Below are positions 41,629-60,268 of a stretch of DNA of 64,000 nucleotides, piece by piece. Source of the stretch: Burkholderiales bacterium (GTDB lineage: Bacteria > Pseudomonadota > Gammaproteobacteria > Burkholderiales > Casimicrobiaceae). The translations under genes and the position numbers were made by a program. The notes under the pieces are model-generated. The model saw only the letters and a program-made list of their open reading frames with translations. It searched no databases and was not told the origin of the DNA. Where the stretch lies: positions 1-64,000 of the forward strand of contig JADZDD010000013.1 in NCBI GenBank assembly GCA_020851235.1, written 5' to 3'. The number at the start of each line of letters is the position of its first letter. The first letter of the stretch is position 1.

Positions 41629-41703
41629 GGAGGATCTCCGCTGATGATTTAAGGGGCCTCGCGCGAGGCGATCGACCGCCGGCTTCGCGTCGGCACGGCA
41701 TCG

Positions 41704-41748
41704 ATGATGTGACCCCGAGCGCACGGCGTCCCCCCTCGGCACGGGGGG
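41704..41748 (-). promoter_or_regulatory. C6-N7-G6 operator and promoter of the aldehyde dehydrogenase gene
   Basis: CCCCCC at 41730-41735 and GGGGGG at 41743-41748 form a perfect inverted repeat with a 7-base gap (TCGGCAC on the plus strand). Read on the minus strand, 17 bases after the G run stands TCACATCAT (41712-41704), the weakest -10 match of the five sites of this type. Could also act as a terminator for the preceding wax ester synthase gene. Confidence 0.55.
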
Positions 41749-41773
41749 CCTCCGAGGCGACGTGGCTCGTGCG

Positions 41774-43192
41774 CTACGCGCGACCGGAAGGCGTCTTCGC
41801 GGCCGCGGGCAGCGCGGCACGTGCCGGCGCCGCGGCGCGCAACGCGCTGAACGCCTTGCCCGTCGCGAGCGCGAGCCGGTCGAGGTCCGGCAGCGCGGCA
41901 CCGTTGGCGACGAAACCGAAGTCCATCGACTCCCCGCACGACAGGAGTGTCACGTTGAGCCCGATGCCGACGCCGAGCGCGGACATGGGGTACATCGCGG
42001 CCAGGCGCGCGCCGCGCAGGTACAGCTGCGTACGAGGACCGGGAACGTTCGACAGCACGAGGTTGGCGATCGGCAGCGATGCGCGCGCGCCGACGAGGCT
42101 CGCCGCCTCGCCCAGGCCGAATGCGAGCATCGCGTAGAGCATCGCGGCGTCCCCCGGCAACGCCCGCAGGTCGACCTTGGCTGCCTTGGTCGCGTCGATG
42201 ACACGGCGCATGCGCGCGACGACGTCCATGTCGGGGTCGCCCAAGGCGACGAACATGACCGTCGCCTTGGTCGTCGCCTCGGTGTCGCCTGCCGCACGCA
42301 GCGACAACGGGCACATTGCGACCAGCGGCCGCGCCGGGGGCTGCCCCAGCGCCGCGAGATACTCGCGCAGACCCGCATCGACGATCGTCGCCGCGACGTC
42401 GTTGAGCGTTCCGCCGTAGGCCTTGCCGACCGCACGCATGTCGGCGATCGGCAGCGAAAGCGTCGCCACGGAGCGGTCCTTCTCGATGCGGGCATTGAGC
42501 GGCCCGCGCGGACCGACGAAAGGGACGCTGCCCCCGGAGCGCTTGCCGGCGAGGCGCTCGGCGCCGGTGCGCAGCAAGCCCACGTACAGATCCTTGGCGG
42601 CGAGCGTCTGCCGCGTCACGAGTGTCTTGAGCGCCCGCAGCGCAGCGCTGCGCCCGCGCGTCGCCGCGGCGCGCGAGGGGTCCATGGCGACCGCGAAGAA
42701 CGGCTCCACCTTGCGCGCCGCGGGATCGGCGGACAGGCTCGCCACGATTCGGGCGACGGCCGACTGGCCGTCGACCATCGCGTGATGGATCTGGAAATAC
42801 ATCGCGAAGCCACCCGCGGCGAGGCCTTCGATGAGGAACAGGCGAAAGCACGGTTGGCTGCGGTCGAGGACTTCCCGGTGCAGACTGGCGATCTTCGCGA
42901 GGAGCTGGCGCTGTCCCCCGGGCTTGCGCAACACGAGATGCTGCACGTGATAGGCCATGTCGAGCGCGCTCGCCCGCTTCCACCGTGGCGCGTGGGTGAG
43001 ACCGGTGTCGAGGATGAGGTTGAACGGCGGCTCGGCGACCGCCTTGCGGTAGTCGGCCGCGAGATCGGCGACGAAGGTTCGGCCGGCCCGACGCGGCCGA
43101 TCGAAGAGCATCAGCGCCCCAACGTGCTTCGGATCGTCGCGCGACTCGAGCAGGAAGAACAGGAGGTCGACCAACGGAATCGGCTTCGTCAT
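41774..43192 (-). CDS. Wax ester synthase / diacylglycerol acyltransferase (WS/DGAT)
   Basis: A bifunctional acyltransferase of 472 residues that esterifies fatty alcohols or diacylglycerol with acyl-CoA for storage lipid. The active-site motif HHAMVDG is at residues 136-142, in the family context YFQIHHAMVDGQS. The C-terminal WES domain has LVLSNVPGPRTQLYLRGARL and LNVTLLSCGESMDFGFVAN. GAGGA precedes the ATG at 43192; an in-frame ATG at 43207 is less likely. It is transcribed divergently from the DUF1302 operon, behind its own G/C repeat. Confidence 0.92.
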   Translation of the reverse strand: MTKPIPLVDLLFFLLESRDDPKHVGALMLFDRPRRAGRTFVADLAADYRKAVAEPPFNLILDTGLTHAPRWKRASALDMAYHVQHLVLRKPGGQRQLLAKIASLHREVLDRSQPCFRLFLIEGLAAGGFAMYFQIHHAMVDGQSAVARIVASLSADPAARKVEPFFAVAMDPSRAAATRGRSAALRALKTLVTRQTLAAKDLYVGLLRTGAERLAGKRSGGSVPFVGPRGPLNARIEKDRSVATLSLPIADMRAVGKAYGGTLNDVAATIVDAGLREYLAALGQPPARPLVAMCPLSLRAAGDTEATTKATVMFVALGDPDMDVVARMRRVIDATKAAKVDLRALPGDAAMLYAMLAFGLGEAASLVGARASLPIANLVLSNVPGPRTQLYLRGARLAAMYPMSALGVGIGLNVTLLSCGESMDFGFVANGAALPDLDRLALATGKAFSALRAAAPARAALPAAAKTPSGRA

Positions 43193-43248
43193 GGATATCC
43201 TCGTCATTTGCGCCACCGCGGTCCGGGCCCGGACCACCGAAGCGGTGG

Positions 43249-43299
43249 AGCTTAGGACGTGCGATGGCAAGGCGCCCCCCCTGCTTGGAAGGGGGCGCC
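43249..43299 (-). promoter_or_regulatory. G/C inverted-repeat operator and promoter of the wax ester synthase gene
   Basis: GGCGCCCCC (43271-43279) and GGGGGCGCC (43291-43299) form a perfect 9-bp dyad. On the minus strand the run of seven Gs ends at 43275, and exactly 17 bases later comes TCCTAAGCT (43257-43249), the same element and spacing as at the divergent DUF1302 promoter. Confidence 0.65.
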
Positions 43300-43324
43300 T
43301 GCCCATGGCCCGACGCACCACGAA

Positions 43325-43395
43325 GCCCCCCCAGCGTCCCACCACGGATCCCACTCGGTTAGGGGGGGGCATTCCGGGCCGCTCGATCCTAGAGT
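43325..43395 (+). promoter_or_regulatory. G-run operator and promoter of the DUF1302 operon
   Basis: CCCAC-TCGGTTA-G8 (the G run is 43362-43369) is an imperfect version of the C6-N7-G6 repeat. TCCTAGAGT follows after exactly 17 bases (43387-43395), 38 bases before the ATG at 43434. A second C7 run (43326-43332) could also pair with the G run. Confidence 0.62.
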
Positions 43396-43433
43396 GCGAC
43401 CCTGCACGTACCCGATCGCCACTGGAGAGTCCC

Positions 43434-45302
43434 ATGCCGCTGACCGTCCGCTTCGCCTCGCCGACACCGCGCACGTTGCGCCAGTCCCTGCTCTGCGCCG
43501 CCTTGGGCGCCGTCTTCGCCGCTCCCGCGATGGCGTTCGAGATCCCCGAGGTTCATCCGGATCTCGTGATGCGCTGGGACAACACGATCCGCTACAACCT
43601 CGGCGTTCGCACGCAGTCGCAGGATCCCGCGATCCTCGGCGCCGTGAACAACGACGACGGCGATCGCAACTTCTCCAATGGCTCGCTCGTCGCCAATCGG
43701 TTCGACCTCCTGTCCGAATTCGATGCCGTCTGGCAGAAGAAGTACGGCGTCCGCTTCTCCGCTGCGCTGTGGTGGGATCCGGCGTACAACAGCCTCGACA
43801 ACGGCAACAACGTCACCGCCAACACGCTGGTCGACGGGCTCCCGGTGGCCGGCGCGCTGTCGCCGTACAGCAAGCGCTACGCCAAGGGGCCATCGGCCGA
43901 ATGGCTCGATGCCTTTGCCTTCGCCAACTTCCGGATCGGCGGTGTTCCGGTGAACATCAAGGCGGGGCAACACACGGTGTACTGGGGTGACAGCCTGCTC
44001 CTGGGCGGCGCGCTGCACGGCGTGTCCTACGCGCAGAATTCGCTCGATCTGTGGAAGGGGCTGTCGACACCGGGAGCCGAGGCCAAGGAGCTGTTCCGGC
44101 CGCGCGGCGGCCTCACGCTGCAGGCGCAGCCGACGAAGGACGTGTCGATCGCCGGGCAATGGTTCTACAACTGGCAGGCCGTGCGTTATCCGGAGTCGGG
44201 GAGCTACCTGACCGCGAGCGACGCCCTCAACTTCGGCGGCGATTCGCTGATCCTCGGGCCCAATCCGTTCGCGGCCGCGGTTCCCGGCGCACCCGCGCTC
44301 CTGCGCGCGTGGAACACGAACTCGACGCGGTCGTCGCGCTACAGCGGCAGCTTCAACGACTGGGGCATCTCGGCACGCTGGAGCCCGGAATGGCTCGACG
44401 GCACGCTCGGGCTCTACTACCGCAATGCCACCGACATCCAACCGCAGCTCATGCTCACGCAGGGGTTCGCGGCGGTCGCGGCCGCACCCTGCAGGGGCAT
44501 CGGCGGCATCGTGGTGGCCCCGGGCGCGTGCATCATCAACCCCAAGGTCACGAGCGTGGCCGACCTCACGCAGAAGGGCAAGGTGGGGGAGTACAGCACG
44601 GCCTACGGTGACGACATCCACATCATGGGCATCACGCTGTCGAAGAACATCGGTGGCGTGTCGGTCGGTGCGGAGTTGTCGTATCGCCAGAACATGCCGC
44701 TCATCAGCGATCCGGTGATCGTGCTCCCTGCGCCCCTGGTGGCGACCACCCCGGGCGCGATCGCGACCAGTGCGGTCCCCACGCACGGCACTCCGGGCGC
44801 GCTCGGCGACACGTATCACGGGCTGGTCAACGCCATCTGGACGTCGGCCAACACGCCGTTCTACAACAGTGCGGTGTTCCAGGCCGAGCTCACCTGGATG
44901 CACTGGGCCAAGGTCACGCAGAACGAAGCGGTGTTCAAGGGGCGCGACGGCTACAACGGCATCGATCGCGTCTCGCGCGACTACCTCGGCTTCGGCATCA
45001 ACTTCACGCCGACGTGGTACCAGGTCTTCCCCGGCGCGGACCTGATGGCTCCGCTGTCGTACGCGCGGGGCATCAACGGCAATGCGGCGGTGATGAGCGG
45101 CGGCAACGAGGGCGCTGGCAACTTCGCGGTGGGCTTGGCGCTCGACATCTACGCCAAGTACCGCTTCGATCTCAAGTACACGGGCTACTTCGGCGACTAC
45201 TCGACGAATCCGGTCACCGGCGCAGCGAACGCCTTCAGCGGCGTCACCGCGGCGCTCTCCGATCGCGGCTTCGTCTCGCTCACCTTCAAGACGACATTCT
45301 AG
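43434..45302 (+). CDS. DUF1302 outer-membrane protein
   Basis: An exported 622-residue protein with a signal peptide ending at APAMAFE (about residue 34). The DUF1302 domain follows: VMRWDNTIRYNLGVR, AGQHTVYWGDSLLLGGALHGVSYAQNSLDLWKG, FNDWGISARWSPEWLDGTLGLYYRN. It closes with a beta-strand rich C-terminus ending in Phe (LTFKTTF), as in outer-membrane barrels. DUF1302 proteins are probably porin-like channels for hydrophobic substrates; this is inference. It is the first of four co-directional genes with DUF1329, YCF48-like and RND products. Confidence 0.88.
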   Translation: MPLTVRFASPTPRTLRQSLLCAALGAVFAAPAMAFEIPEVHPDLVMRWDNTIRYNLGVRTQSQDPAILGAVNNDDGDRNFSNGSLVANRFDLLSEFDAVWQKKYGVRFSAALWWDPAYNSLDNGNNVTANTLVDGLPVAGALSPYSKRYAKGPSAEWLDAFAFANFRIGGVPVNIKAGQHTVYWGDSLLLGGALHGVSYAQNSLDLWKGLSTPGAEAKELFRPRGGLTLQAQPTKDVSIAGQWFYNWQAVRYPESGSYLTASDALNFGGDSLILGPNPFAAAVPGAPALLRAWNTNSTRSSRYSGSFNDWGISARWSPEWLDGTLGLYYRNATDIQPQLMLTQGFAAVAAAPCRGIGGIVVAPGACIINPKVTSVADLTQKGKVGEYSTAYGDDIHIMGITLSKNIGGVSVGAELSYRQNMPLISDPVIVLPAPLVATTPGAIATSAVPTHGTPGALGDTYHGLVNAIWTSANTPFYNSAVFQAELTWMHWAKVTQNEAVFKGRDGYNGIDRVSRDYLGFGINFTPTWYQVFPGADLMAPLSYARGINGNAAVMSGGNEGAGNFAVGLALDIYAKYRFDLKYTGYFGDYSTNPVTGAANAFSGVTAALSDRGFVSLTFKTTF

Positions 45303-45317
45303 GAAAGGACACCGATC

Positions 45318-46676
45318 ATGTTGCGCAAGACCCTGATGGCCGTGGCCATCGCATCGTTGGCCACGAATGCCCTCGCCACCGTATCCGCGGACGAGGCAAA
45401 GCAACTCGGCACGACACTCACCGCCGTCGGCGCCGAGAAGGCCGGCAACAAGGATGGGACGATCCCCGAGTACACGGGTGGGCTCACCAAGGCGCCCGCG
45501 GCGTTCAAGGCGGGCTCGGGCGAGCGCCCGGACCCCTTTGCCGGCGAGAAGCCGCGGCTCGTCATCGACGGCAAGAACGTCGGCCAGTACGCCGACAAGC
45601 TCACCGAAGGCACCAAGGAGCTGCTCAAGCGCTACCCGACGATGCGGGTGGACGTCTACCCGACGCATCGCACCGCCGCGGTGCCCAAGTTCGTGCTCGA
45701 CAACACGGCGAAGAACGCCACGGCGGCACGCACCGGCGAGGGTGGCCTGACGCTCGAGAATGCGGTCGCCGGCTATCCGTTTCCGATCCCGAAGACCGGC
45801 AACGAAGTCATGTGGAACCACCTCATGACGTACAAGGGCCTGGGATTCACTGCCAAGTACGACAGCGTCAACGTCGATGCCGCCGGGGTGCCGACACTGG
45901 CCACCTACGGCGAGGCCACCTACGAGTGGCCGATCTACGACAGCAAGAAGACGGGCCCGATCGACACCGCGAAGCCGTTCTGGTACGTGCGCCTCCAGTA
46001 TCTCGGGCCGGCGCGGCGCAACGGCGAAGCGCTTCTCGTGTGGGATACGCTCGATCCGCTCAAGCACGGCCGGCGGGCCTGGCAGTACCTGCCAGGGCAG
46101 CGGCGCGTGAAGCTCGCGCCGGACGTGGCGTACGACACGCCGAATCCCGGCACCGCCGGCGCATCCACCTACGATGACGCTTCGGTGTTCAACGGCGCCA
46201 TGGATCGCTTCGACTTCAAGCTCGTCGGCAAGAAGGAGATGATCGTTCCGTACAGCAACTACCGGCTGACCTACGCCAAGGCGACCGCCGACGTGACCAA
46301 GCCGAACCACCTCAATCCGGACTTCGTGCGCTGGGAGCTGCACCGCGTGTGGGTGGTCGAAGCCACGCTCAAGCCCGGCAAGCGCCACATCTACAGCAAG
46401 CGAGTCTTCTACATCGACGAGGACACGTGGGCGGCACTGGCCTCCGACCAGTACGACGGGCGCGGCCAGCTCTATCGCTCCGGGTTCGCGCATCAGTCGC
46501 AAAGCTACGACGCGATGGCGCCGTGGATCGATACGCTCGCCTACTACGACTTCAGCTCAGGGATCTACAACATCGGCGCCCTGCCGGGTGGCCATTACGG
46601 TGTCCGCTACTTGACCGAGCCCAAGGAGGACACGTTCTGGTCGTCCGAGGAACTCGCCGGGTCGGGCATCCGCTAG
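45318..46676 (+). CDS. DUF1329 periplasmic lipid-handling protein
   Basis: An exported 452-residue protein with a signal peptide (LMAVAIASLATNALA). The DUF1329 family resembles LolA/LolB-like lipid carriers: VSADEAKQLGTTLTAVGAEKAGN at the mature start, NEVMWNHLMTYKG, RRAWQYLPGQRRVKLAPD and ELHRVWVVEATLKPGKRHIYSKRVFYIDEDTW. It lies 15 bases after the DUF1302 gene with AGGAAAGGA as the ribosome site. Together with DUF1302 it probably moves a hydrophobic substrate through the envelope. There is no direct proof of ligand. Confidence 0.9.
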   Translation: MLRKTLMAVAIASLATNALATVSADEAKQLGTTLTAVGAEKAGNKDGTIPEYTGGLTKAPAAFKAGSGERPDPFAGEKPRLVIDGKNVGQYADKLTEGTKELLKRYPTMRVDVYPTHRTAAVPKFVLDNTAKNATAARTGEGGLTLENAVAGYPFPIPKTGNEVMWNHLMTYKGLGFTAKYDSVNVDAAGVPTLATYGEATYEWPIYDSKKTGPIDTAKPFWYVRLQYLGPARRNGEALLVWDTLDPLKHGRRAWQYLPGQRRVKLAPDVAYDTPNPGTAGASTYDDASVFNGAMDRFDFKLVGKKEMIVPYSNYRLTYAKATADVTKPNHLNPDFVRWELHRVWVVEATLKPGKRHIYSKRVFYIDEDTWAALASDQYDGRGQLYRSGFAHQSQSYDAMAPWIDTLAYYDFSSGIYNIGALPGGHYGVRYLTEPKEDTFWSSEELAGSGIR

Positions 46677-46722
46677 CAGGACCGCGCGGCGACATCGTTC
46701 GCCGTGCGTACCGTCTTTCCTC

Positions 46723-46750
46723 ACCCCGGGGCAGCGCCTGGCCTCGGGGT
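46723..46750 (+). other. Intra-operon hairpin between DUF1329 and YCF48-like genes
   Basis: ACCCCG (46723-46728) pairs with CGGGGT (46745-46750), with further GC pairing possible inside. It sits in the 95-base gap and may adjust expression or mRNA stability. No T tract. Confidence 0.4.
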
Positions 46751-46771
46751 CTTCTCCATCGCAGCAAGGGC

Positions 46772-47854
46772 ATGACCATGCGCGTTCACAGCTTCACACG
46801 GGCCCTCCCGGTCGTGGCGGCGGCGCTGTTCGCGGCGAGCGTCGTCGCCGCACCGTTCGTCGATCCACTGGATACCCCCGCGGCCGTCTCGCCGCTGGCG
46901 AGCCGGACGTTGCTGCAGGGGGTGGCGCGCGCCGGCGATCGCGTGGTCGCCGTCGGCCAGCGCGGGCACATCGTCGTATCGACCGACCAGGGCAAGACGT
47001 GGCGACAGGCGAAGGTGCCGGTGAGTTCGGATCTCACCGCGGTGTTTTTCGTCGACGACCGGAAGGGATGGGCGGTGGGACACGACGGCGTCGTGCTCGC
47101 GAGCGAGGACGGCGGCGACACGTGGCAGTTGCAGCTCGACGGTCGGCGCGCCAACGTGAAGCTCGTCGAGCACATGCAGCAGCGCGTCGCCGAGGCGCCC
47201 GACTCGAAGGAGCTCGCGCGGCTGCTCGAGGACGCCAAGCGCTACGTCGAGCAGGGTGCGGACAAGCCGTTCCTCGACGTCTGGTTCTCCGACGCCAGTA
47301 CGGGCTACGTCGTCGGCGCTTACAACCTCATCTTCAGGACCACCGACGGCGGCAAGAACTGGCAACCGTGGTTCGACCGCACCGACAACCCCAAGGCCTT
47401 CAACCTGTACGCGATTCGCCCCGTGGCAGGCGACCTCTACATCGCCGGTGAGGGCGGCCTCGCGCTCAAGCTCGACCCCGCGGCCGAGCGTTTTCGTGCC
47501 CTCGACGTGCCGTACAAGGGGAGCTTCTTCGGCGTGACCGGCGGCAAGGATGGCGTCGTCCTCTACGGCCTGCGCGGGAACGTCTACCGCAGCGGCGACG
47601 CGGGGCGCACCTGGAGCAAGGCCGATGCCGGACTCGTCGCGACCGTGACCAGCGCGGCGCGCACCTCGGCCGACGCGATCCTGCTCGCCGATGCGGGCGG
47701 GCGCTTCGTCGAGAGCACCGACGGCGGGCGCGCCTGGAGCAAGGTCGCCGCATCGACCCCCGTGCCGGTGACCGGCTTCGCCGAGCTTGGCGGCGGGCGC
47801 TTCGCCCTGGTCGGGCCACGCGGCGCCACCGTCACCGAACTCACGCCGCGCTAG
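46772..47854 (+). CDS. YCF48/BNR-repeat beta-propeller protein
   Basis: An exported protein of 360 residues with a signal peptide ending near SVVAAPFVD (about residue 26). It has repeated BNR/Asp-box units: VSTDQGKTWRQ, ASEDGGDTWQL, RTTDGGKNWQP, RSGDAGRTWSK, ESTDGGRAWSK, as in the HCF136/YCF48 photosystem II assembly fold. Here it is a companion of DUF1302, DUF1329 and the RND exporter and presumably a periplasmic scaffold of that complex. ATG 46772 or 46778 could be the start. Confidence 0.88.
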   Translation: MTMRVHSFTRALPVVAAALFAASVVAAPFVDPLDTPAAVSPLASRTLLQGVARAGDRVVAVGQRGHIVVSTDQGKTWRQAKVPVSSDLTAVFFVDDRKGWAVGHDGVVLASEDGGDTWQLQLDGRRANVKLVEHMQQRVAEAPDSKELARLLEDAKRYVEQGADKPFLDVWFSDASTGYVVGAYNLIFRTTDGGKNWQPWFDRTDNPKAFNLYAIRPVAGDLYIAGEGGLALKLDPAAERFRALDVPYKGSFFGVTGGKDGVVLYGLRGNVYRSGDAGRTWSKADAGLVATVTSAARTSADAILLADAGGRFVESTDGGRAWSKVAASTPVPVTGFAELGGGRFALVGPRGATVTELTPR

Positions 47855-47895
47855 CCGTACGCACGGCGCGCCCTGCGGCAAGAAAGGATCTCATC

Positions 47896-50376
47896 ATGGC
47901 GATTGGAAGCGGCGACCTCGACCCGATGCCGGTCGTGCGCAATCTCGGTGACTTCGACCGCAGCTCGGGCAATCTCCTCGAGCGGCTCGTCTTCAATCAT
48001 CGTCTGGTCATGGTCGCCCTGTGCGCGCTGATCACGATCGCGCTCGGCTACTTCGCGGCGACCCGGCTCGTGCTCAATGCGAGCTTCGAGAAGATGATTC
48101 CGCACCACCAGCCGTACATCGAGAACTACCTCAAGTATCAGAAGGACCTGCGCGGGCTCGGCAACTCGATCCGCGTCGTCGTGGAGAACACCGGCGGCGA
48201 CATCTTCGATCCCAAGTATCTCGAGGTGTTGAAGCAGGTGACCGACGAACTCATCCTGACTCCCGGCGTGGATCGGGCCTGGGTGAAGTCGCTTTGGACA
48301 CCGGCGGTGCGCTGGGCCGAAGTGACCGAGGAGGGCTTCAGCGGCGGGCCGGTGATGCCCGACTCGTACGACGGCTCGGCGAAGACGGTGGAGCAACTGC
48401 GGCAGAACATCGCCCGCGCCGGCATCGTGGGCAGCCTCGTCGCCAACGATTTCAAGTCGAGCATGATCTTCGTGCCGCTGCTCGACAAGATACCGGGAAC
48501 CGGCAAGCCCATCGACTATCACGGGCTGTCGAAGATCCTCGACGAGAAGATCCGGGCCAAGTACGAGATCGCGCAGCACCTCGAGAAGGTGCGCAGCGGC
48601 GGGGAGACGACCGACATCAAGGTCCGGGTGATCGGCTTTGCCAAGCTCGTCGGCGACCTGATCGACGGGCTCTTCAAGGTGATGCTGTTCTTCGGCATCG
48701 CCGCACTCATCGCCACTGCGATCATCTACGCGTACACGCGCTGCGTGCGCAGCACGCTGCTGGTCGTCGCCTGTTCCCTGGTCGCGGTGGTGTGGCAACT
48801 CGGGCTCGTCGCGCTCCTGGGTTTCGAGCTCGATCCCTTCAGCATCCTCGTGCCCTTCCTCGTTTTCGCGATTGGCGTCTCGCACGGCGCGCAGAAGATG
48901 AACGGCATCATGCAGGACATCGGTCGCGGCACGGTGAAGCTCGTCGCGGCCCGCTACACCTTCCGCCGCCTGTTCCTGGCGGGGCTCACCGCGCTGCTCG
49001 CCGACGCCGTCGGTTTCGCCGTGCTGATGGCCATCGACATCCCGGTGATCAAGGACCTCGCCTTGACCGCGAGCATCGGGGTGGCGGTGCTGATCTTCAC
49101 CAATCTCCTGCTCCTGCCCGTCCTGCTGTCCTACACCGGCGTGTCCGCGAGCGCCGCCGCGCGCAGCCTTCGCGAAGAGAGGGATGAAACGGGCGGCAGG
49201 GGAATGGGGCAGATCTGGCGGCTGCTCGAGCGCTTCACCACCCGGCCCTACGCGACCGGGGCGATCGGTGTCGCAGCTGCGCTGGCGGTCTTCGGCTTTG
49301 CCGTAAGCCAGCATCTGAAGATCGGCGATCTCGATCCCGGCGCACCGGAGCTTCGCCCGACGTCGCGCTACAACGTCGACAACGCGTACATCACGCGCCA
49401 CTACGCGCTGTCGTCGGACCAGTTCGCGGTGATCGTGAAGACGCCGAAGGAGGGCTGCCTCAAGTACGAAACGCTCGTCGAGGCCGATCGTCTGGCGTGG
49501 GCGCTGAAGCAGGTCCCCGGGGTGCAGGCGACGGTTTCGCTCGCCGATGCAGCCCGCCAGATCACCGCCGGATCGTTCGAGGGCAGCCCGAAATGGCTGA
49601 CGCTCAATCGCAATCAGGACGTGCTGAACTACGCCGCACAGCAGGCCTCGGTGAACAATCCCGACCTCTTCAATACCGACTGCTCGGTGATGCCGGTCAT
49701 CGCCTATCTCACCGACCACAAGGCCGAGACGCTCGACCGCGTGGTGGCCGCCGCGCAGTCGTTCGCCGCGCAGCACGACGACAAGGATCGCGCCTTCCTC
49801 CTGGCCGCGGGCAGCGCGGGGATCGAGGCCGCGACCAACATCGTGGTGCGCCAGGCCAACCGCACCATGCTCCTCTACGTCTATCTCGCGGTCATCGTGC
49901 TGTGCTTCATCACGTTCCGGAGCTGGCGCGCGGTCGTGGTGGCCGTGGTCCCGCTCGCCATCACGTCGATCCTGTGCGAGGCGCTGATGGTGGGGCTCGG
50001 CATGGGGGTGAAGGTCGCGACGCTGCCGGTGATCGCGCTCGGCGTGGGCATCGGCGTCGACTACGCGCTCTATCTCCTGTCGGTGCAGCTCGCGCAGCAG
50101 CGCAAGGGCGTGGAACTGCCCGAAGCGTACCGCGGCGCACTGCAATTCACCGGCAAGGTGGTCGCGCTCGTCGGCATCACGCTGGCCGCGGGGGTCATCA
50201 CCTGGGCCTTCTCGCCGATCAAGTTCCAGGCCGACATGGGCATCCTGCTCACGTTCATGTTCCTGTGGAACATGGTCGGGGCGCTGGTGCTCATCCCGGC
50301 GCTGTCGCACTTCCTGCTGCCGACCCGGGCGGTGTGCAAGACGCCGTTGCCCAACGTGGCGACACAGGCGGCATGA
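47896..50376 (+). CDS. RND/MMPL-family transporter
   Basis: An inner-membrane RND-superfamily protein of 826 residues with two halves, each with one helix, a large periplasmic domain and a five-helix bundle. First helix: LVMVALCALITIALGYFAATRL near residues 36-56; second bundle starts near 640 (TMLLYVYLAVIVLCFITFRSW) with the MMPL signature GVGIGVDYALYLLSVQL. It is most like the HpnN/MmpL lipid-exporter branch and may energise movement of a hydrophobic substrate with its three upstream partners. It is the last gene of the operon and is followed by a strong hairpin. Confidence 0.9.
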   Translation: MAIGSGDLDPMPVVRNLGDFDRSSGNLLERLVFNHRLVMVALCALITIALGYFAATRLVLNASFEKMIPHHQPYIENYLKYQKDLRGLGNSIRVVVENTGGDIFDPKYLEVLKQVTDELILTPGVDRAWVKSLWTPAVRWAEVTEEGFSGGPVMPDSYDGSAKTVEQLRQNIARAGIVGSLVANDFKSSMIFVPLLDKIPGTGKPIDYHGLSKILDEKIRAKYEIAQHLEKVRSGGETTDIKVRVIGFAKLVGDLIDGLFKVMLFFGIAALIATAIIYAYTRCVRSTLLVVACSLVAVVWQLGLVALLGFELDPFSILVPFLVFAIGVSHGAQKMNGIMQDIGRGTVKLVAARYTFRRLFLAGLTALLADAVGFAVLMAIDIPVIKDLALTASIGVAVLIFTNLLLLPVLLSYTGVSASAAARSLREERDETGGRGMGQIWRLLERFTTRPYATGAIGVAAALAVFGFAVSQHLKIGDLDPGAPELRPTSRYNVDNAYITRHYALSSDQFAVIVKTPKEGCLKYETLVEADRLAWALKQVPGVQATVSLADAARQITAGSFEGSPKWLTLNRNQDVLNYAAQQASVNNPDLFNTDCSVMPVIAYLTDHKAETLDRVVAAAQSFAAQHDDKDRAFLLAAGSAGIEAATNIVVRQANRTMLLYVYLAVIVLCFITFRSWRAVVVAVVPLAITSILCEALMVGLGMGVKVATLPVIALGVGIGVDYALYLLSVQLAQQRKGVELPEAYRGALQFTGKVVALVGITLAAGVITWAFSPIKFQADMGILLTFMFLWNMVGALVLIPALSHFLLPTRAVCKTPLPNVATQAA

Positions 50377-50424
50377 CGCTCGTCAGCCCGCCCCGGCGCG
50401 TCCAGTCCCCGAGTCGACCTCGCC

Positions 50425-50452
50425 TCATGATGCCGGTGACCCGGCATCATGA
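50425..50452. terminator. Perfect 12-bp hairpin between convergent RND and LuxR genes
   Basis: TCATGATGCCGG (50425-50436) and CCGGCATCATGA (50441-50452) are exact inverted repeats around TGAC. The hairpin overlaps the stop codon region of the LuxR-type gene (stop at 50447-50449) and lies 48 bases after the RND stop, so it could stop transcripts from both sides. Confidence 0.7.
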
Positions 50453-53092: not shown

Positions 53093-53205
53093 GGCGGGGT
53101 CGGGCACGCCCGCAGGTCCCTGCACCCAGATCACCAGCGGCCGCGCGGGGCAAGAGTATCACTGCACCGGCGTAACGACGCGCTCGACCGGGGTTCGCAG
53201 CGCCG

Positions 53206-54159
53206 ATGAACGCACCCTACGTGGAGATCGTCGACGACCCGCGCGGGCGCCTGCGCCGCTGGCTCCTCTTCGTGACGTTGCGCGCCACGGCGCGCCGCAT
53301 GCGTGTGGATGAGGCGAACGTCGCCGCCCTGCGGGAGAGCCAGGCACGCCTCGATGCGCGGCTCGGCGGCGCTCACGCACGGGTCGCGTCCACGCCCGTG
53401 CGCGAACCTGGCGTAAACGCGCAATGGATCGCGCCGCCCGACGCGCGTGAGGATCGCGTGCTGCTGTATCTCCACGGCGGGGCGTTCATGTTTCGCTACC
53501 CGCACACGCACGCCGCGCTCATCACGCCCTGGTGCGAGGCGCTCCACGCGCGCGCGCTCATGGTCGATTACCGGCTCGCGCCGGAACACCGCTTTCCCGC
53601 CGCACCGCATGACTGCCACGCCGCGTACCGATGGCTGCTCGGGCGTGGCGTGGCGCCACGCAGCATCGTGCTCGCCGGCGATTCGGCGGGCGGCAACCTC
53701 GTGCTCGCCACGCTGCACGCGATCAGGAGTGCGGGCGAGCCGATGCCCGCCTGTGCCGTGCTCCTCTCGCCGGTGGTCGACCTGACCCTGTCCGGTGCGA
53801 CCTTCGTGACGCGTGCCGAGCGCGATCCCGTGTTCTCGCTGCCGCAGCTCATCGGCATTCGCAACCACTACCTGGCACCCGAGCAGTTGCTCGATCCGCG
53901 CGCCTCGCCGCTGTTCGCGAGCTTCCGGGGCTATCCGCCGCTACTCATCCAGGTCGGGACCGAAGAGGTGCTTCTCGACGACGCGGTGCGCGCCGCAGCG
54001 CGCGCACACGCCGAAGGGGTCGCGGTCGAACTCGAAATCTGGCGCCACATGCCGCACGTCTTCCAGGCGGTGCGCACCCTGCCGCAGGCCGCGGCCGCGC
54101 GGGAGCGCATCGTCGCCTTCATCGCCCGCCACACCGACGCCGCCCCGCAACGATCATGA
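53206..54159 (+). CDS. Alpha/beta hydrolase, hormone-sensitive-lipase family
   Basis: A carboxylesterase/lipase of 317 residues with the HSL-family oxyanion motif HGG at residues 90-92 (YLHGGAFMF) and the nucleophile Ser160 in GDSAGG. The catalytic Asp and His are probably in QVGTEEVLLDD and HMPHVFQ. Such enzymes cleave short to medium acyl esters and are cytoplasmic; no signal peptide is seen. It is divergent from the LuxR-type regulator with a 113-base gap. It could release the acid or alcohol used by the island's oxidation genes. Confidence 0.9.
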   Translation: MNAPYVEIVDDPRGRLRRWLLFVTLRATARRMRVDEANVAALRESQARLDARLGGAHARVASTPVREPGVNAQWIAPPDAREDRVLLYLHGGAFMFRYPHTHAALITPWCEALHARALMVDYRLAPEHRFPAAPHDCHAAYRWLLGRGVAPRSIVLAGDSAGGNLVLATLHAIRSAGEPMPACAVLLSPVVDLTLSGATFVTRAERDPVFSLPQLIGIRNHYLAPEQLLDPRASPLFASFRGYPPLLIQVGTEEVLLDDAVRAAARAHAEGVAVELEIWRHMPHVFQAVRTLPQAAAARERIVAFIARHTDAAPQRS

Positions 54160-54160
54160 C

Positions 54161-54187
54161 GGCGCGCAGCGCTGAACGCGGCGCGCC
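54161..54187. terminator. Hairpin between convergent esterase and outer-membrane protein genes
   Basis: GGCGCGC (54161-54167) pairs with GCGCGCC (54181-54187) around 13 bases, starting two bases after the esterase stop. No T tract. Confidence 0.45.
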
Positions 54188-54190
54188 CCG

Positions 54191-55021
54191 TCACTTGGGA
54201 AACATCAACTGCACCTGCAACCGCAATTGCCAATTGGCGCCGTTGTCGGGGTGCACCACGTTGTAGTACGCGCCGAGTTGCGTGTTCACCGGCAGCTTGC
54301 CGAAGTGGAAGATCTTGCCGACGCCGCCGCCCAGCGGCACGGTCCAGCGCTCGCTGTTCTCGGCCTCCCAGTTGGCAGTGATGACCGGCGACGACGTGAA
54401 GTACACCCCGCCGGGGAAGTTGTAGTTCAGGAACGGTTGCACCAGGAAGTTGTTGTAGCGCCCGCCTCGCTCACTGCCGGAGAGCGACCAGACGTTGTTG
54501 ACGAGCACGCCGTAGACCCAAGGGTTGCCCTGCTCGAGTTTCAGCACCACGGCAGTCGGGCCGAGTCCCCAGTTCTTGTTGCCGAGCACCGCGTCGGAGT
54601 TGGTCGGCAACTGCGCGATCGCACCCGCGCCCCAGATCAAGCCGCCCGGCCCAGGATTCGCCGGCGACAGGAACGCCGAGAACTGGATGTCGCCGAGGCC
54701 GAAGGTGTTGCCCTCACCAGGAACGAACTCGGGCTGCCAGATGAGCGGCATGATCGTCCGCGTGATGACGTTCCAGTCCTTGTTCACCGTGATCGGGATC
54801 ACCGGCTGGATGTTCAGGATGTTCTGCGTTCCCGACAGCGGCCCGACGTTGAAATTGGTGTTGTTCTGGAAGGGCACGCTGATCATCGCCCCGACCGGGT
54901 TCTGCGCCATCTTGGCGAGTTCCTCGGCGGAAAGTTCGGCGCGCGCGGTGGGAGCGGCCGCCAGCAGTGCGGCCGTCGCAGCCGTCGCCACGAGCCCGGC
55001 GTTCATGCGTTTCCCGTTCAT
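54191..55021 (-). CDS. Outer-membrane transporter-like beta-barrel protein
   Basis: An exported protein of 276 residues with a signal peptide ending near APTARAELS (about residue 26). It then shows alternating beta-strand pattern: FNVGPLSGTQNILNIQPVIP, FGLGDIQFSAFLSP, NNFLVQPFLNYNFPGGVYF, and ends VQLMFPK. It is like the family often annotated neuromedin-U-like or MetA-pathway transporter and resembles phenol-degradation outer-membrane proteins. It probably forms a channel for a hydrophobic compound. GGAAGGAG precedes the ATG at 55021. It is the third gene after the exported peptide and alcohol dehydrogenase. Confidence 0.82.
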   Translation of the reverse strand: MNGKRMNAGLVATAATAALLAAAPTARAELSAEELAKMAQNPVGAMISVPFQNNTNFNVGPLSGTQNILNIQPVIPITVNKDWNVITRTIMPLIWQPEFVPGEGNTFGLGDIQFSAFLSPANPGPGGLIWGAGAIAQLPTNSDAVLGNKNWGLGPTAVVLKLEQGNPWVYGVLVNNVWSLSGSERGGRYNNFLVQPFLNYNFPGGVYFTSSPVITANWEAENSERWTVPLGGGVGKIFHFGKLPVNTQLGAYYNVVHPDNGANWQLRLQVQLMFPK

Positions 55022-55088
55022 GTCTCGATGCTCCTTCCTGGGGGCATCATCCCGGGCGGCGGAGTCACCTGCCTCGGGATGAAGCGGT

Positions 55089-56249
55089 TCAGTGCACAAG
55101 GGTTGCCCGGCTCGTCGGATCGATGAGGATCTTGGCGTGGACTTCCGGATTGCCCAGGGCGTCGAAGGCGCCATCGACCCCTTCGAGGCCCACGGTACCG
55201 GTGATGAGGGGGGCGCAGGCGAGCCGGCCGTCGGCGATGGCGTGCAGCGTATCGCGATACTCGAGCGGCGTGTAGCCCATCGCGAAGCGCAGGTCGACCT
55301 CCTTGTTGATCGCGATCGCCGGCTCGAGGTGGTCGGTCTTCATGCACACCCCCACCACGACGACACGCGACAAGAGGGGCGCGCCTTCGATGATGTGCTG
55401 GAGCACGCCCGGCGCCCCGACGCACTCGAAGACGACCGGTCGCTTGGGCGTGATGCCGAGCTTGTCGACGAGCCGCCAGGCGTGCCACCACGGCACGGGC
55501 AGGCGGCCCAGCTTCTCGCGCGTTTCCACCAGCAGCGAAAGACCGCCGGTCACCTCGTCGATGAAGCCGTGGTTGCGCGACGACGCGAATGGGGAGTGAC
55601 TGGCAGGGTCGACGACGACGTCCGCGCCGCACTTGCCGGCAAGCGACCGGCGTGCCGCCGAGAAATCACTTGCCACGACCGTGGCCACCCCCGTCGCCTT
55701 CAACGCGCAGATGACACCCAGGCCCACCGGGCCGCAGCCGATCACGATCGCGACATCCTTGCGGCTCACCTCGCCGCGACGCACGGCGTGCCACGCCACC
55801 GCCATCGGTTCGGTCAGCGCGGCCAGCTCGTCGGGCAGGCCGTTGGGTACCCGGACCATCATCGAGGTCTCGACCACGGTACGCTCGGCGTACGCGCCGG
55901 TCGAGCGCGGCGACAGGCCGATGAGGTCGATGGTCTCGCCGTGGCGCAGCAGCGGCAGCGCGCACACGCGCGTGCCGGGCTTCCATGTCTTCGCGGTTCC
56001 CGGGCCATAGTCCAGGATCTCACCGCAGAACTCGTGACCGAACACGACCTCCTGATCCGAGCGCATGAAGCCCCGGTAGCCGGTGCGCTCCATGAGCGCG
56101 TTCCAGTGGTCGCAGTGATGGCGGGCGTGCAGGTCGGAGCCGCAGATGCCGCAGCGCAGGACGCGCAGCAGCGCCTGCCCCCGACGAGGCGTGGGCTCCG
56201 GCAGTTCGGCGACGCGCAGCTGCGCGTCCTGGCAGACGACCGCCCGCAC
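55089..56249 (-). CDS. Zinc-dependent alcohol dehydrogenase (MDR)
   Basis: A medium-chain dehydrogenase of 386 residues. Catalytic zinc motifs are CGICGSDLHARHH and FGHEFCGEI; the Rossmann motif is VIGCGPVGLGVICALKA. The usual four-cysteine structural zinc loop is not visible in the expected place. The GTG at 56249 is chosen: it directly precedes the conserved first strand and lies two bases after the stop of the exported-peptide gene. Its place in the island suggests oxidation of a hydrophobic secondary or primary alcohol; related proteins act on threonine, butanediol or sugars, so substrate is open. Confidence 0.87.
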   Translation of the reverse strand: MRAVVCQDAQLRVAELPEPTPRRGQALLRVLRCGICGSDLHARHHCDHWNALMERTGYRGFMRSDQEVVFGHEFCGEILDYGPGTAKTWKPGTRVCALPLLRHGETIDLIGLSPRSTGAYAERTVVETSMMVRVPNGLPDELAALTEPMAVAWHAVRRGEVSRKDVAIVIGCGPVGLGVICALKATGVATVVASDFSAARRSLAGKCGADVVVDPASHSPFASSRNHGFIDEVTGGLSLLVETREKLGRLPVPWWHAWRLVDKLGITPKRPVVFECVGAPGVLQHIIEGAPLLSRVVVVGVCMKTDHLEPAIAINKEVDLRFAMGYTPLEYRDTLHAIADGRLACAPLITGTVGLEGVDGAFDALGNPEVHAKILIDPTSRATLVH

Positions 56250-56251
56250 GA

Positions 56252-56428
56252 CTAGCGACCGCGAGGAAACAGGTCCGCGACGCTCCTGGCGTAGACCCGC
56301 GGGAGCGGGACGTCGGCGCCGGCCTGGGTCTCCTGCCCGGCGTGCGTCGGGCGCGGCACCGCGACCAGGACGAGGGTGCAGATCATGGCGAGGACGATCC
56401 CCAGCAAGGCCTTCGCTTGGCGCTTCAT
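56252..56428 (-). CDS. Small exported protein of 58 residues
   Basis: A short open reading frame with a perfect AGGAGG ribosome site before the ATG at 56428. It encodes a basic N-terminus (MKRQAKA), a hydrophobic helix (LLGIVLAMICTLVLVAV) with a likely cleavage site at THAGQ, and a short mature part containing DVPLPRVYARSVADLF. The stop lies two bases before the alcohol dehydrogenase GTG, so the two are tightly linked. I recognise no family. It follows a C6-N7-G6 promoter. It may be a small accessory peptide of the dehydrogenase or the outer-membrane protein. Confidence 0.7.
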   Translation of the reverse strand: MKRQAKALLGIVLAMICTLVLVAVPRPTHAGQETQAGADVPLPRVYARSVADLFPRGR

Positions 56429-56460
56429 CGCATTCCTCCTGCAGTGCTTGGCGTGAGAGG

Positions 56461-56505
56461 AATGTATCCGCGCCACCCGCCGCCGTCCCCCCTCGCCGCG
56501 GGGGG
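56461..56505 (-). promoter_or_regulatory. C6-N7-G6 operator and promoter of the exported-peptide/alcohol dehydrogenase operon
   Basis: CCCCCC (56487-56492) and GGGGGG (56500-56505) flank seven bases. On the minus strand, exactly 17 bases after the G run, stands GGATACATT (56469-56461), a -10-like element 32 bases before the ATG at 56428. Confidence 0.62.
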
Positions 56506-56563
56506 TCGGACGTCCCGTCGTGACGCCCGGCGGTTTGGCGAGCCCTCCTTCGTCGGCCCTGCC

Positions 56564-58207
<1,644 letters not shown>

Positions 58208-58261
58208 GACAATCTCCGGTGAAGTGACGTTGGCGGCGGGTCCCGCCGCACGACCATCGTC

Positions 58262-58307
58262 ACGATAGCGCCGACGGGGCCTGCGCGCCCCCCCATCGGC
58301 CGGGGGG
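58262..58307 (-). promoter_or_regulatory. C6-N7-G6 operator and promoter of the acyl-CoA ligase gene
   Basis: C7 (58288-58294) and G6 (58302-58307) flank ATCGGCC. On the minus strand, exactly 17 bases after the G run, stands CGCTATCGT (58270-58262), matching the CTA core of the elements at the wax ester synthase and DUF1302 promoters. The ligase ATG at 58207 is 54 bases further. Confidence 0.62.
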
Positions 58308-58351
58308 CGCGCTCCGAACGTGCGAGCTTGCGACCGCGCCGTTCGTGGCGA

Positions 58352-60058
58352 TCAGGCCGACGGTCCGAAGTACACCTCGAAGAATCGCGAGAGGATGGCC
58401 GGCGGTACCGCCACGTTCGCCTCGACGCTGGTGCGTACGCACACCAGCGCGGGCCCGGGATGCGCTCGCGCACGTTCCAGCGCCGGGGCGAGTTGCGCGA
58501 TGTCGGTCACCGTCTCGCCGTGGCAGCCGAGACTGGTGGCAAGCTCGGCCCAGTCGACGGCGCCCATCGTGGTGCCGAAAGTCTTGCCCCAGCGCATCGT
58601 TCCGTTGGGAATCTCCATCGACCACTGGCCCTCGGCAAACACCACTGCGGTGATCTTGACGCCCTCGCGCACCGCAGTCGACAGCTCCATCACGTTGAAA
58701 CCCGCGGCGCCGTCGCCGCTGACGCACACCACCTCGCGCGAGGGATCACCGAGCTTCGCGCCGATCGCCGAAGGGATGCCGGTGCCGAGCATGCCGAGCT
58801 CCAGGATGCTGTGGAACGACGACGGGCGCGTCGACGGCAGCGCGATCGAGGTCCAAAGCGAGGTGAAGCCGCCGTCGGCGACGTAGACGGCGTCGCGTCC
58901 GAACGCTTCGCCGACGACCGTGCACGCCTGGCCGGGGTGAATGCCGCTGCCGTTCCAGCCGGTGAGCGCATCGGCGATGCCCTTCACGAATCCGGCGCGG
59001 CTTTCCCGCGCGGGGGCAAGATCGCGACGGGCATGACCCTTGATGGCGCGACCGGCAAGCGCGCCGCCCAATCCTTCGAGTGTCGCCTTCGCATCGGCGA
59101 CGATGCCCAGTGCCGTCGGTCGTGTCACGCCGATGTGCCGCGGATCGACGTCGACATGGATCAGCTTGCAGCGCGCGGGATCGCCCCAGTACTTGTCGTA
59201 GGGAACGTCGAGGTTCCCCACCCGCGAGCCGACGACGAGCATGACGTCGGCGCGCCGGCGCAGGTCATCCGCCGCGGGGCTTTGCGACAGGAAGCAGTTC
59301 GGATGATCGTGCGGGACCACCGCACGACCGGCGAGCGACGGGATCACCGGGCAATCGAGCACCGCGACGAGGTCGAGCAGCGCCTGGTTGGCGCCCGCAC
59401 GATCGACACCGCTTCCGGCGAAGATCACCGGATGCGCGGCGTCGGCCAGGAGATCCGCCGCGGCGGCAAGCTGTGCCGACGACGGTTGCGGCAGGGCGCC
59501 CCGGCCGGAGAACGCCGCGTGGATGGGAGCCGATGCGGCGTCCCCCGTCGCGTACATGGTCGGTCCGGGGATCTCGAGGTGCACCGGACCCGGCCGCCCC
59601 GCCCACATCTCGCGAAACGCCATGCGCACGAGTTCGGGAATGCGCGACCACTCGAATACCGGGCCGCCCCATTTCACCGTGGGTCGGAAGAGGTCGATCT
59701 GATCCTGGCCCTGGAACGTGGCGGAGGTGGAGGGGTAGGCGATACCGAGGCGATGCTGCGACGTGATGGCGAGCACGGGCACGCCTTCGTGTCTCGCGGT
59801 GACGATCCCCGGCAACAGATTCGCCGAGCCGGGCCCGGGATTGCCGAGAACCACACCGACTTGCCCCGTCGTCTTGTACAAGCCTTCGGCCATGTGCACC
59901 GCGGCCGCCTCGTGACGGATCGGTACCAGCCGGATCCCGTTGCCTTCGAGCGCCGCGAGGAAAGGATCGATCTCGGGGCACGACAGCCCGAATACGAACT
60001 TCACGCCTTCGTTGGCAAGCGCTCGCGCGAGAAGCTCACCGCCGCTGATCTGTGACAT
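58352..60058 (-). CDS. Thiamine-diphosphate-dependent enzyme, acetolactate-synthase-like
   Basis: A 568-residue ThDP enzyme with the three-domain layout of acetohydroxyacid synthase, oxalyl-CoA decarboxylase and 2-hydroxyacyl-CoA lyase. Catalytic Glu50 lies in IRHEAAAVHMAEG. The central domain has HPVIFAGSGVDRAGAN, and the ThDP/Mg motif reads SGDGAAGFNVMELSTAVREGV. No regulatory ilvN-type subunit is encoded nearby, so branched-chain amino-acid synthesis is unlikely. In this context a 2-hydroxyacyl-CoA lyase or similar role producing an aldehyde for the aldehyde dehydrogenase is possible but unproven. Confidence 0.85.
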   Translation of the reverse strand: MSQISGGELLARALANEGVKFVFGLSCPEIDPFLAALEGNGIRLVPIRHEAAAVHMAEGLYKTTGQVGVVLGNPGPGSANLLPGIVTARHEGVPVLAITSQHRLGIAYPSTSATFQGQDQIDLFRPTVKWGGPVFEWSRIPELVRMAFREMWAGRPGPVHLEIPGPTMYATGDAASAPIHAAFSGRGALPQPSSAQLAAAADLLADAAHPVIFAGSGVDRAGANQALLDLVAVLDCPVIPSLAGRAVVPHDHPNCFLSQSPAADDLRRRADVMLVVGSRVGNLDVPYDKYWGDPARCKLIHVDVDPRHIGVTRPTALGIVADAKATLEGLGGALAGRAIKGHARRDLAPARESRAGFVKGIADALTGWNGSGIHPGQACTVVGEAFGRDAVYVADGGFTSLWTSIALPSTRPSSFHSILELGMLGTGIPSAIGAKLGDPSREVVCVSGDGAAGFNVMELSTAVREGVKITAVVFAEGQWSMEIPNGTMRWGKTFGTTMGAVDWAELATSLGCHGETVTDIAQLAPALERARAHPGPALVCVRTSVEANVAVPPAILSRFFEVYFGPSA

Positions 60059-60132
60059 CGCCTATGCTCCTTTGCCGGATACGCGCGGATCGCGCGAAGG
60101 GTCGCCAGCATGGCGCCGGCGCCGCGCCGACA

Positions 60133-60152
60133 CACCCCCGGCGGTGGGGGGG
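60133..60152. promoter_or_regulatory. Imperfect C5-N6-G7 repeat between the ThDP gene and a divergent gene
   Basis: CCCCC (60135-60139), six bases, then seven Gs (60146-60152). It resembles the island's C6-N7-G6 sites but has a shorter gap, and no convincing -10 lies 17 bases away on the minus strand. On the plus strand GTCACGAGG stands at that distance, like the aldehyde dehydrogenase site. Orientation is ambiguous. Confidence 0.35.
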
Positions 60153-60268
60153 ATCGACGCCAAGCGAAGGTCACGAGGCGTTGCTGCAGGACCGGGCGAC
60201 AGCACCGGTCGAGTCGATGCGCCCCTTGCGATCTCCGGGTGCGGGTCGTGGCGGCGTACACTGCGGCC

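Follow-up and report, generated by a model that had tools for sequence, protein, structure and literature searches.

The question raised by this locus is why five intergenic regions within 18.4 kb should each carry a run of cytosines, a short gap and a run of guanines at one distance from a −10-like element, and which protein might read them. The window, as we call the whole stretch of DNA analysed, comprises 64,000 nucleotides (positions 1 to 64,000, forward strand) of contig JADZDD010000013.1 from a Burkholderiales bacterium of the Casimicrobiaceae (GenBank assembly GCA_020851235.1). From comparison of sequences we consider it highly probable that these palindromes are operators of an uncharacterized clade of LAL (AlkS/MalT-like) LuxR-family activators, driving a regulon of five promoters here; the box is very likely to be what a little-studied family of sensor-activators recognizes in DNA.

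A sequence-only reading had described five intergenic C-run/G-run places with 17 bases between the last G and a −10-like 9-mer, and all five are present as it claimed. Taken as 20-bp boxes and scored with the position weight matrix introduced below, they lie with their −10-like hexamers and proposed targets as follows (spacing is counted from the last G to the hexamer).

41730–41749, minus strand: C/G palindrome GCCCCCCGTGCCGAGGGGGG, 20 bp, proposed operator of the aldehyde dehydrogenase gene (matrix score 20.1, spacing 20)
41704–41709, minus strand: weak −10-like CATCAT, 20 bases past the aldehyde dehydrogenase box
40189–41628, minus strand: aldehyde dehydrogenase, proposed target (Pfam Aldedh, 1.9e-156)
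43275–43294, minus strand: box CCCCTTCCAAGCAGGGGGGG, 20 bp, before the wax ester synthase gene (score 17.9, spacing 20)
43249–43254, minus strand: −10-like TAAGCT of the wax ester synthase gene
41774–43192, minus strand: wax ester synthase/DGAT, proposed target (TIGR02946, 332 bits, over the cut-off; Pfam WS_DGAT)
43350–43369, plus strand: box CCCACTCGGTTAGGGGGGGG, 20 bp, before the DUF1302 operon, left arm degenerate (score 15.5, spacing 20)
43390–43395, plus strand: −10-like TAGAGT of the DUF1302 operon
43434–50376, plus strand: proposed target operon DUF1302-DUF1329-YCF48/BNR-MMPL/RND (Pfam)
43434–45302, plus strand: DUF1302 protein (Pfam)
45318–46676, plus strand: DUF1329 protein (Pfam)
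inside 46349–47854, plus strand: YCF48/BNR-like protein (Pfam)
47896–50376, plus strand: MMPL/RND transporter (Pfam)
56487–56506, minus strand: box ACCCCCCGCGGCGAGGGGGG, 20 bp, before the exported peptide and zinc alcohol dehydrogenase genes (score 22.8, spacing 20; top site of the window)
56461–56466, minus strand: −10-like TACATT of the exported peptide/alcohol dehydrogenase genes
56252–56428, minus strand: 58-residue peptide, N-terminus signal-like by eye (translation)
55089–56252: zinc alcohol dehydrogenase, after the 58-residue peptide gene (Pfam ADH_N/ADH_zinc_N)
58288–58307, minus strand: box CCCCCCGGCCGATGGGGGGG, 20 bp, before the acyl-CoA ligase gene (score 19.6, spacing 20)
58262–58267, minus strand: −10-like TATCGT of the acyl-CoA ligase gene
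56564–58207, minus strand: acyl-CoA ligase (NF005426, 3-(methylthio)propionyl-CoA ligase, 984 bits, over the cut-off)
60135–60152, minus strand: further C/G palindrome, the sixth, ahead of the thiamine-pyrophosphate enzyme gene at 58352–60058 (score 8.2)

With its score of only 8.2 the sixth palindrome is probably not a functional site. The form C6-N7-G6 proposed for the others fits 41730, 56487 and 58288 exactly or almost exactly, but the box at 43275 is C5-N9-G7 on the minus strand. The pairing of C43326–43332 with G43362–43369 over 29 bases proved not to be the element; the 20-bp box there is 43350–43369, whose degenerate left arm reads CCCACTCG.

The last G lies exactly 20 bases from the −10-like hexamer at all five sites, the hexamer being TAnnnT at four and CATCAT at the fifth. 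Placing the hexamer at −12 to −7 puts the palindrome at −52 to −33 of the predicted start, with its centre at −42.5. Relative to these predicted starts the arrangement is that of class II (lux-box-like) promoters, a palindrome of about 20 bp at a fixed place in lieu of the −35 element; the lux box, too, is centred at −42.5 in place of −35. The sequence-only reading had proposed a promoter element centred near −40, which the same fixed spacing in other lineages (see below) strongly supports, with the centre adjusted to −42.5.

Could such an arrangement arise by chance? Simulating the window 300 times with a first-order model gave a mean of 0.62 and a maximum of 3 palindromes of the form C5+-N4-13-G5+, against 5 observed (a count that includes 60135 and excludes the DUF1302 box). 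Three observed palindromes share one distance to TAnnnT, and no simulation ever gave more than one. A search of the whole genome (3.93 Mb), as the sequence-only reading had suggested, came out differently for two versions of the pattern. The genome has four C6-N6-9-G6 places, three in the window and one on contig C40 at 22049; the reversed-pattern control gave none. C5-N5-14-G5 occurs at 22 distinct places, five of them in the 18.4 kb, but its reversed control gives a similar number (34 control matches against 24 on the forward strand), so that the short form is not special by itself and only its clustering here is. From 36 sites of the named loci treated below we then built and froze a weight matrix; its training drew on distant genomes only, the window's own genome and the loci of two near relatives being excluded. 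It scores all five window sites at 15.5–22.8 and finds no other window match of 14 or more. The same matrix gave 0 matches of at least 14 in 40 control stretches of this genome (800 kb; best 11.4), and none in 15 stretches holding the genome's other C5/G5 places (L022–L036; best 11.4). Simulations, genome-wide counts and matrix controls together set aside a chance origin of the five palindromes.

We give hardly any credence to the idea that the palindromes act as RNA hairpins, whether rho-independent terminators or of another kind, belonging to upstream genes. It would suit the palindromes at 41730 and 58288, where strong G+C stems follow genes of the same direction, and an order-mate of the organism (G050) has several CCCCCCTTT...AAAGGGGGG palindromes. 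However, the stem followed by a T tract that marks an intrinsic terminator is absent: in the 12 bases flanking each of the five palindromes to left and right, T runs reach a length of 2 at most. None of the five is among the terminator-like sites of the region (5 found, against 7.6 in shuffles), and the boxes at 43275 and 43350 sit in a divergent intergenic region. Nor would terminators explain the fixed 20 bases to TAnnnT; the sequence-only reading, too, had found the identical spacing hard to account for by terminators alone. A scan of 41500–60300 for −35/−10 pairs found none, which is weak evidence because shuffles give just 1.1.

If the boxes are operators, the proposed reader is encoded among them:

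50447–53134, minus strand: LAL/MalT-like LuxR-family regulator, 895 residues (Pfam); the start may be the ATG at 53092

None of the five boxes is more than about 9 kb away from this gene. The protein has the composition of a LAL regulator, with an N-terminal AAA/STAND-type ATPase (PF13401, 30.0 bits against a cut-off of 27), MalT-like TPR (PF17874, 54.7 bits) and a C-terminal GerE helix-turn-helix (HTH; PF00196, 60.1 bits) in a chain of about 900 residues. Its recognition helix is DETVKWHLKNLF, which includes E856. The profile match to the MalT structure 8bob has an E-value of 9.8e-47; identity with MalT itself is ruled out by a score of 238.7 bits on NF003420, whose cut-off is 537.

The association of box and regulator was then sought in the best 80 named loci of 467 relatives from a regulator-alignment scan, chosen by protein alone. 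Here TAnnnT most often follows a C4+/G4+ palindrome at 20 bases, in 42 cases where Markov simulations give 2.0; elsewhere between 10 and 35 each distance has 0–4 cases, apart from 19 (7), 21 (9) and 22 (17). In the few loci inspected at distances 21 and 22 (for example L145) the element is the same box with a mismatched end. A strict site occurs in 35 of the 80 loci. With a leave-one-locus-out matrix, using one shuffle per locus and with near-identical kin (for example Pseudomonas) left in training, 60 of the 80 loci beat the best shuffled control, 50 of these at spacing 20, and 65 exceed the 95% control level. Strong sites (at least 17, spacing 20) number 69 in 53 loci, and 53 of the 69 flank the regulator gene, 52 of them pointing away from it. 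By position, 30 are at most 500 bp upstream pointing away, 22 at most 600 bp downstream pointing away, one is downstream pointing back and 16 are elsewhere. Separately, in a Lysobacter/Rhodanobacter-like branch (taken up below), C/G palindromes with no TAnnnT at 20 were seen just upstream of the regulator genes of L129, L131, L132, L135 and L171 (near 9760–9860).

All 11 plasmid records with 80% coverage, which lay outside training, were scanned in the same way. Regulators with at least 35% identity have a site of 20 or more in eight of eight cases, one of them an alphaproteobacterium, with the top site at spacing 20 in seven and at 21 in L252; the boxes of L253, L255 and L257 nearly match training boxes of kin genera and are thus not fully independent. 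None of the three plasmid regulators with 28–31% identity reaches 15 (14.5, 14.2 and no site of 13). Overall, the box is kept beside the regulator in beta- and gammaproteobacteria and in at least one alphaproteobacterium (Azospirillum).

Which part of the protein might read the box is suggested by aligning helices with sites. The residue three before KWH, E856 in the window's protein, is tied to bases 4 and 5 of the left arm. Across all sites of at least 17 in the 80 loci, E goes with CC in 56 of 60, A with CT in 6 of 6, V with CT in 6 of 6, G with TC in 8 of 8 and Q with CC in the single case. Judged by the top site of each locus, E or D accompanies CCCCC (44/46), A, V or T accompanies CCCCT (15/15) and G accompanies CCCT (8/8), while two Q loci split. 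In 13 further loci (8 plasmid, 5 from other families of the order) the top sites fit the rule in 11 of 11 covered cases (5 E, 3 A/V, 3 G). Q (L256) and T (L124, CCCCT) fell outside the rule as first formed, T being joined to A/V afterwards, and the plasmid boxes, though not the residues, were known before the rule was formed. On a tree of 71 regulators, built with the DNA-binding domain omitted and loci lacking a site of at least 17 left out, and with the site states of the window and of a paralogue on contig C40 entered by hand, 10 joint changes suffice for 8 changes of residue and 9 of site, which means that about 7 are shared. The clearest sister pair is L251 (V, CCCCT) and L199 (E, CCCCC). 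This co-variation of residue 856 with bases 4 and 5 suggests that the palindrome's bases are read by the GerE recognition helix, and of all the evidence the coupling speaks best for this protein clade, rather than a neighbour, as the reader of the box. The LuxR/MalT-like protein that the sequence-only reading had named as candidate reader is strongly supported by the proximity of boxes to regulator genes, by the plasmid loci and by the residue–base coupling.

The same results bear on the proposal that an alternative, extracytoplasmic function (ECF)-type sigma factor uses the G-run as its −35 element. The position of the G-run, −38 to −33 at a constant distance from the −10, would be in keeping with it. 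The whole site, however, is a palindrome of 20 bp in which a C arm matches the G-run; across genomes it accompanies the LAL regulator, and changes in its bases go with changes in the LAL recognition helix. We have set this proposal aside by argument only and rate it very improbable.

Relatives of the organism were surveyed for regulator and box together (G, L and C numbers denote genomes, loci and contigs; G000 is the window's genome). The regulator was found in 6 genomes among 100 relatives (E of 1e-30 or better) and in 6 among 399 of the order (E of 1e-60 or better). Contigs bearing it carry a palindrome with exactly 20 bases to TAnnnT in G008 (C85), G003 (two sites), G029 (C387), G125, G168, G413, G400 and G337 (two sites); the G029 match is a 168-residue piece at 43%, and in G168 the site accompanies one of two regulators only. 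The palindromes at L121:510 (G168) and L123:525 (G413) have no TAnnnT at 17–23. Weaker relatives of the regulator (24–31% identical) in G020, G097 and G029 (C169, C495) have no site of at least 14 at their loci, and at that of G008 C596 there is a palindrome at 22. G008 also has three C6/G6 places on contigs that showed no regulator, namely C12 (spacing 20), C139 (21) and C368 (20, plus another site at 20 on the opposite strand).

The DUF1302 gene is co-distributed with regulator and box. An orthologue (E of 1e-60 or better) occurs only in G000, G003 and G008 of 61 genomes, the same three that have a regulator of at least 48% identity, and all three promoters carry the box, at spacing 20 in G003 and 21 in G008. 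An AMP-binding ligase gene of G008 has a box as well. The bare palindrome occurs in 18 of the 61 genomes, and this search is uninformative by itself; in the 15 of these 18 without a detected regulator, 0 of 16 palindromes (the first place of each examined) have TAnnnT at exactly 20. Searching the order for the spaced pattern was too loose a test, since at least 162 of 399 genomes match and several without the regulator have many. Among the matches listed, G392 and G213 (no regulator) have 8 each and the regulator-bearing G125 has 15 per strand; in G337 the single match, again among those listed, lies about 100 bp from the regulator.

These results suggest the following mechanism. The GerE HTH dimer of the protein at 50447–53134, and possibly that of the C40 paralogue too, would bind the 20-bp element CCCYYYC-N5-KRGRGGGG centred at −42.5, so that the bound box would overlap the place of the missing −35 element. 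The activator could then recruit sigma-70 RNA polymerase to the TAnnnT −10 (class II activation), and five promoters would be switched on together: those of aldehyde dehydrogenase, wax ester synthase, DUF1302-DUF1329-YCF48-RND, exported peptide/alcohol dehydrogenase and acyl-CoA ligase. The trigger is presumably a hydrophobic or acyl substrate meeting the AAA/TPR sensor part. We infer the binding, the dimer, activation rather than repression, the start points and the inducer. That the box is the clade's operator but mainly a repressor site overlapping −35, as for AlkS on PalkS1, seems improbable. Overlap with the −35 place would fit such a role, and a self-repressing mode exists for AlkS (PMC8784404). 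Against it, no −35-like pair was found (a weak point), the centre lies at class II distance, and the spacing is exact across lineages, which speaks against repression because it is what polymerase contact demands.

Several observations weigh against operators of the LAL clade read by the window's protein. Within the window, no box adjoins the regulator gene itself, unlike in most relatives; the −10 of the aldehyde dehydrogenase gene (CATCAT) is weak, and the DUF1302-promoter box is degenerate. Among the 80 named loci, 15 have no site above the 95% control level, and a Lysobacter/Rhodanobacter-like branch, close to the window's regulator, keeps the palindrome partly and lacks TAnnnT at 20; this branch may use another −10 or spacing. 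Around the second G168 regulator (on that genome's C40) there is no box for about 17 kb in either direction, and G042 (68% complete, regulator not detected) has a C7-G6 palindrome with TAAAGT at 21 (C33:3089–3108, L040). The residue rule has exceptions too. Four of the 60 E sites are not CC, among them L172 (CCCCT) and L127, whose top box is CCCAACC at 21 and whose N20 box is CCCCCC; at L252, two of three boxes (the lesser ones) are of the E type CCCCCT though the residue is G. The target genes vary between lineages. Finally, the C40 paralogue (46% identical) could be the reader instead or as well, and the G003 regulator is about equally close to it (46.3%) and to the window's protein (47.3%).

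That the operators are the same but their principal reader is this paralogue, or that both proteins share one regulon, is possible though rather unlikely in our view. The paralogue (G000 C40: 9604–12249, L060) is an open frame of 877 residues, one stop noted in the match lying by coordinates at its very end, and its recognition helix is similar to that of the window's protein (encoded on contig C13), with D instead of E. About 10 kb away lies the genome's fourth C6/G6 palindrome (22049–22069, L021), which scores 20.0, has a −10 of GACAAT at spacing 20 and precedes a short-chain dehydrogenase gene. G003, which has a DUF1302 gene with a box, holds a single regulator that joins the paralogue on the tree made without the DNA-binding domain, at a weak support of 0.49. 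On the other side, all five window boxes cluster around the C13 regulator, and G008, with boxes at its DUF1302 and ligase genes, has a clearly C13-type regulator (61% identity).

Beyond the window, 76 proteins encoded downstream of boxes were scanned, hand-picked from 119 called and mostly at sites of at least 17. They include Usp (15), hemerythrin (12), thiolase (11), AMP-binding ligases (9), porin (6), DUF1302 (5), TauD (5), Rieske (5), acyl-CoA dehydrogenase (2), alcohol dehydrogenase (2) and others. The regulator is the sole common neighbour, by construction; the targets differ by lineage, several being outer-membrane or acyl-CoA genes, and because they differ the effector class is a guess. 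In Azoarcus sp. KH32C the regulator, fatty acid-CoA ligase, DUF1302 and DUF1329 genes stand side by side. At two loci (L165:8658–9764 and L176:8498–9727) Usp and hemerythrin domains occur in a single chain downstream of the box; a literature search on Usp-hemerythrin found nothing related. In the window, a 327-residue protein (54191–55174) adjoins the alcohol dehydrogenase, with an N-terminus that is signal-like by eye and no Pfam or NCBIfam match.

Taking the loci together, we judge it likely that the clade is proteobacteria-wide and shares a single conserved C/G operator, 20 bp long and placed at −42.5, which follows a one-residue code at position 856 (E for CCCCC, A/V/T for CCCCT, G for CCCT). 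Sequence by itself would then reveal its regulons, which cover lipid/terpenoid export, thiolase, acyl-CoA ligase, porin and Usp-hemerythrin genes. The LAL regulators form a large group in which operators are known for few members and effectors are not easily guessed; the transported substrates of DUF1302/DUF1329/RND systems are mostly unknown. If true, a fixed operator with a residue code would make regulon prediction for the clade a text search, offer a concrete co-regulated gene set for the DUF1302/DUF1329/RND systems and provide sensor–promoter pairs for hydrophobic or acyl substrates.

A literature search, with most subscription papers outside its reach, found no description of this operator, its spacing or its residue code, and no paper joining DUF1302, DUF1329 and LuxR. 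The operator and code thus appear new within the literature searched, with AlkS, lux-box and RamA sites as precedents in kind; PgnC was dropped as a precedent, being described with AraC-type sites. The sequence-only reading had known of no described site of this form for the regulator class. That is true only in part, since C4/G4 runs for RamA and a 20-bp inverted repeat for AlkS are reported in excerpts of PMC4847777 and PMC8784404. RamA of Corynebacterium glutamicum, a LuxR-type regulator of carbon metabolism, is reported to bind A/T/C-GGGG-N and A/T/C-CCCC-N motifs (PMC4847777, in part) and so resembles the window's system in its LuxR-type HTH and in having C4/G4 runs as its site. It differs in that its NCBIfam model has 280 positions, of which only the HTH part aligns with the window's 895-residue protein, and in that no fixed palindrome and spacing are described in the excerpted text.

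The best characterized relative of the window's regulator is Escherichia coli MalT (NF003420, 238.7 bits; PDB 8bob). The MalT box, a short motif GGA[TG]GA as given in part of PMC9628970, differs from the element here in not being a palindrome. The geometry of the element is that of the lux box and AlkS, not that of the MalT box. The lux box is a 20-bp inverted repeat (PMC9628970, same excerpt), and its likeness to the window's system lies in that repeat and in the GerE-type HTH. Unlike the lux system, the window's box consists of C/G runs, and the sensor is a MalT-like ATPase/TPR rather than an acyl-homoserine-lactone domain. The DUF1302-DUF1329-YCF48/BNR-like-MMPL/RND set at 43434–50376 resembles ameABCD of Castellaniella defragrans, whose DUF1302 (AmeA), DUF1329 (AmeB) and RND transporter (AmeD) serve monoterpene metabolism/efflux according to parts of PMC6394551; the words LuxR, MalT, regulator and promoter are absent from the main text of that paper.

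A further precedent in kind is AlkS of Pseudomonas putida GPo1 and Alcanivorax, a LuxR/MalT-family alkane regulator with a 20-bp inverted repeat upstream of the promoter of alkane oxidation genes (PMC8784404; PMC12740625; both in excerpt). Compared by description only, it matches the window's system as a LuxR/MalT-family activator with a 20-bp inverted repeat. Unlike those of AlkS, the proposed targets of the window's regulator include a wax ester synthase and the DUF1302/DUF1329/RND set. Alcohol and aldehyde dehydrogenases and an acyl-CoA ligase are among the targets of AlkS.

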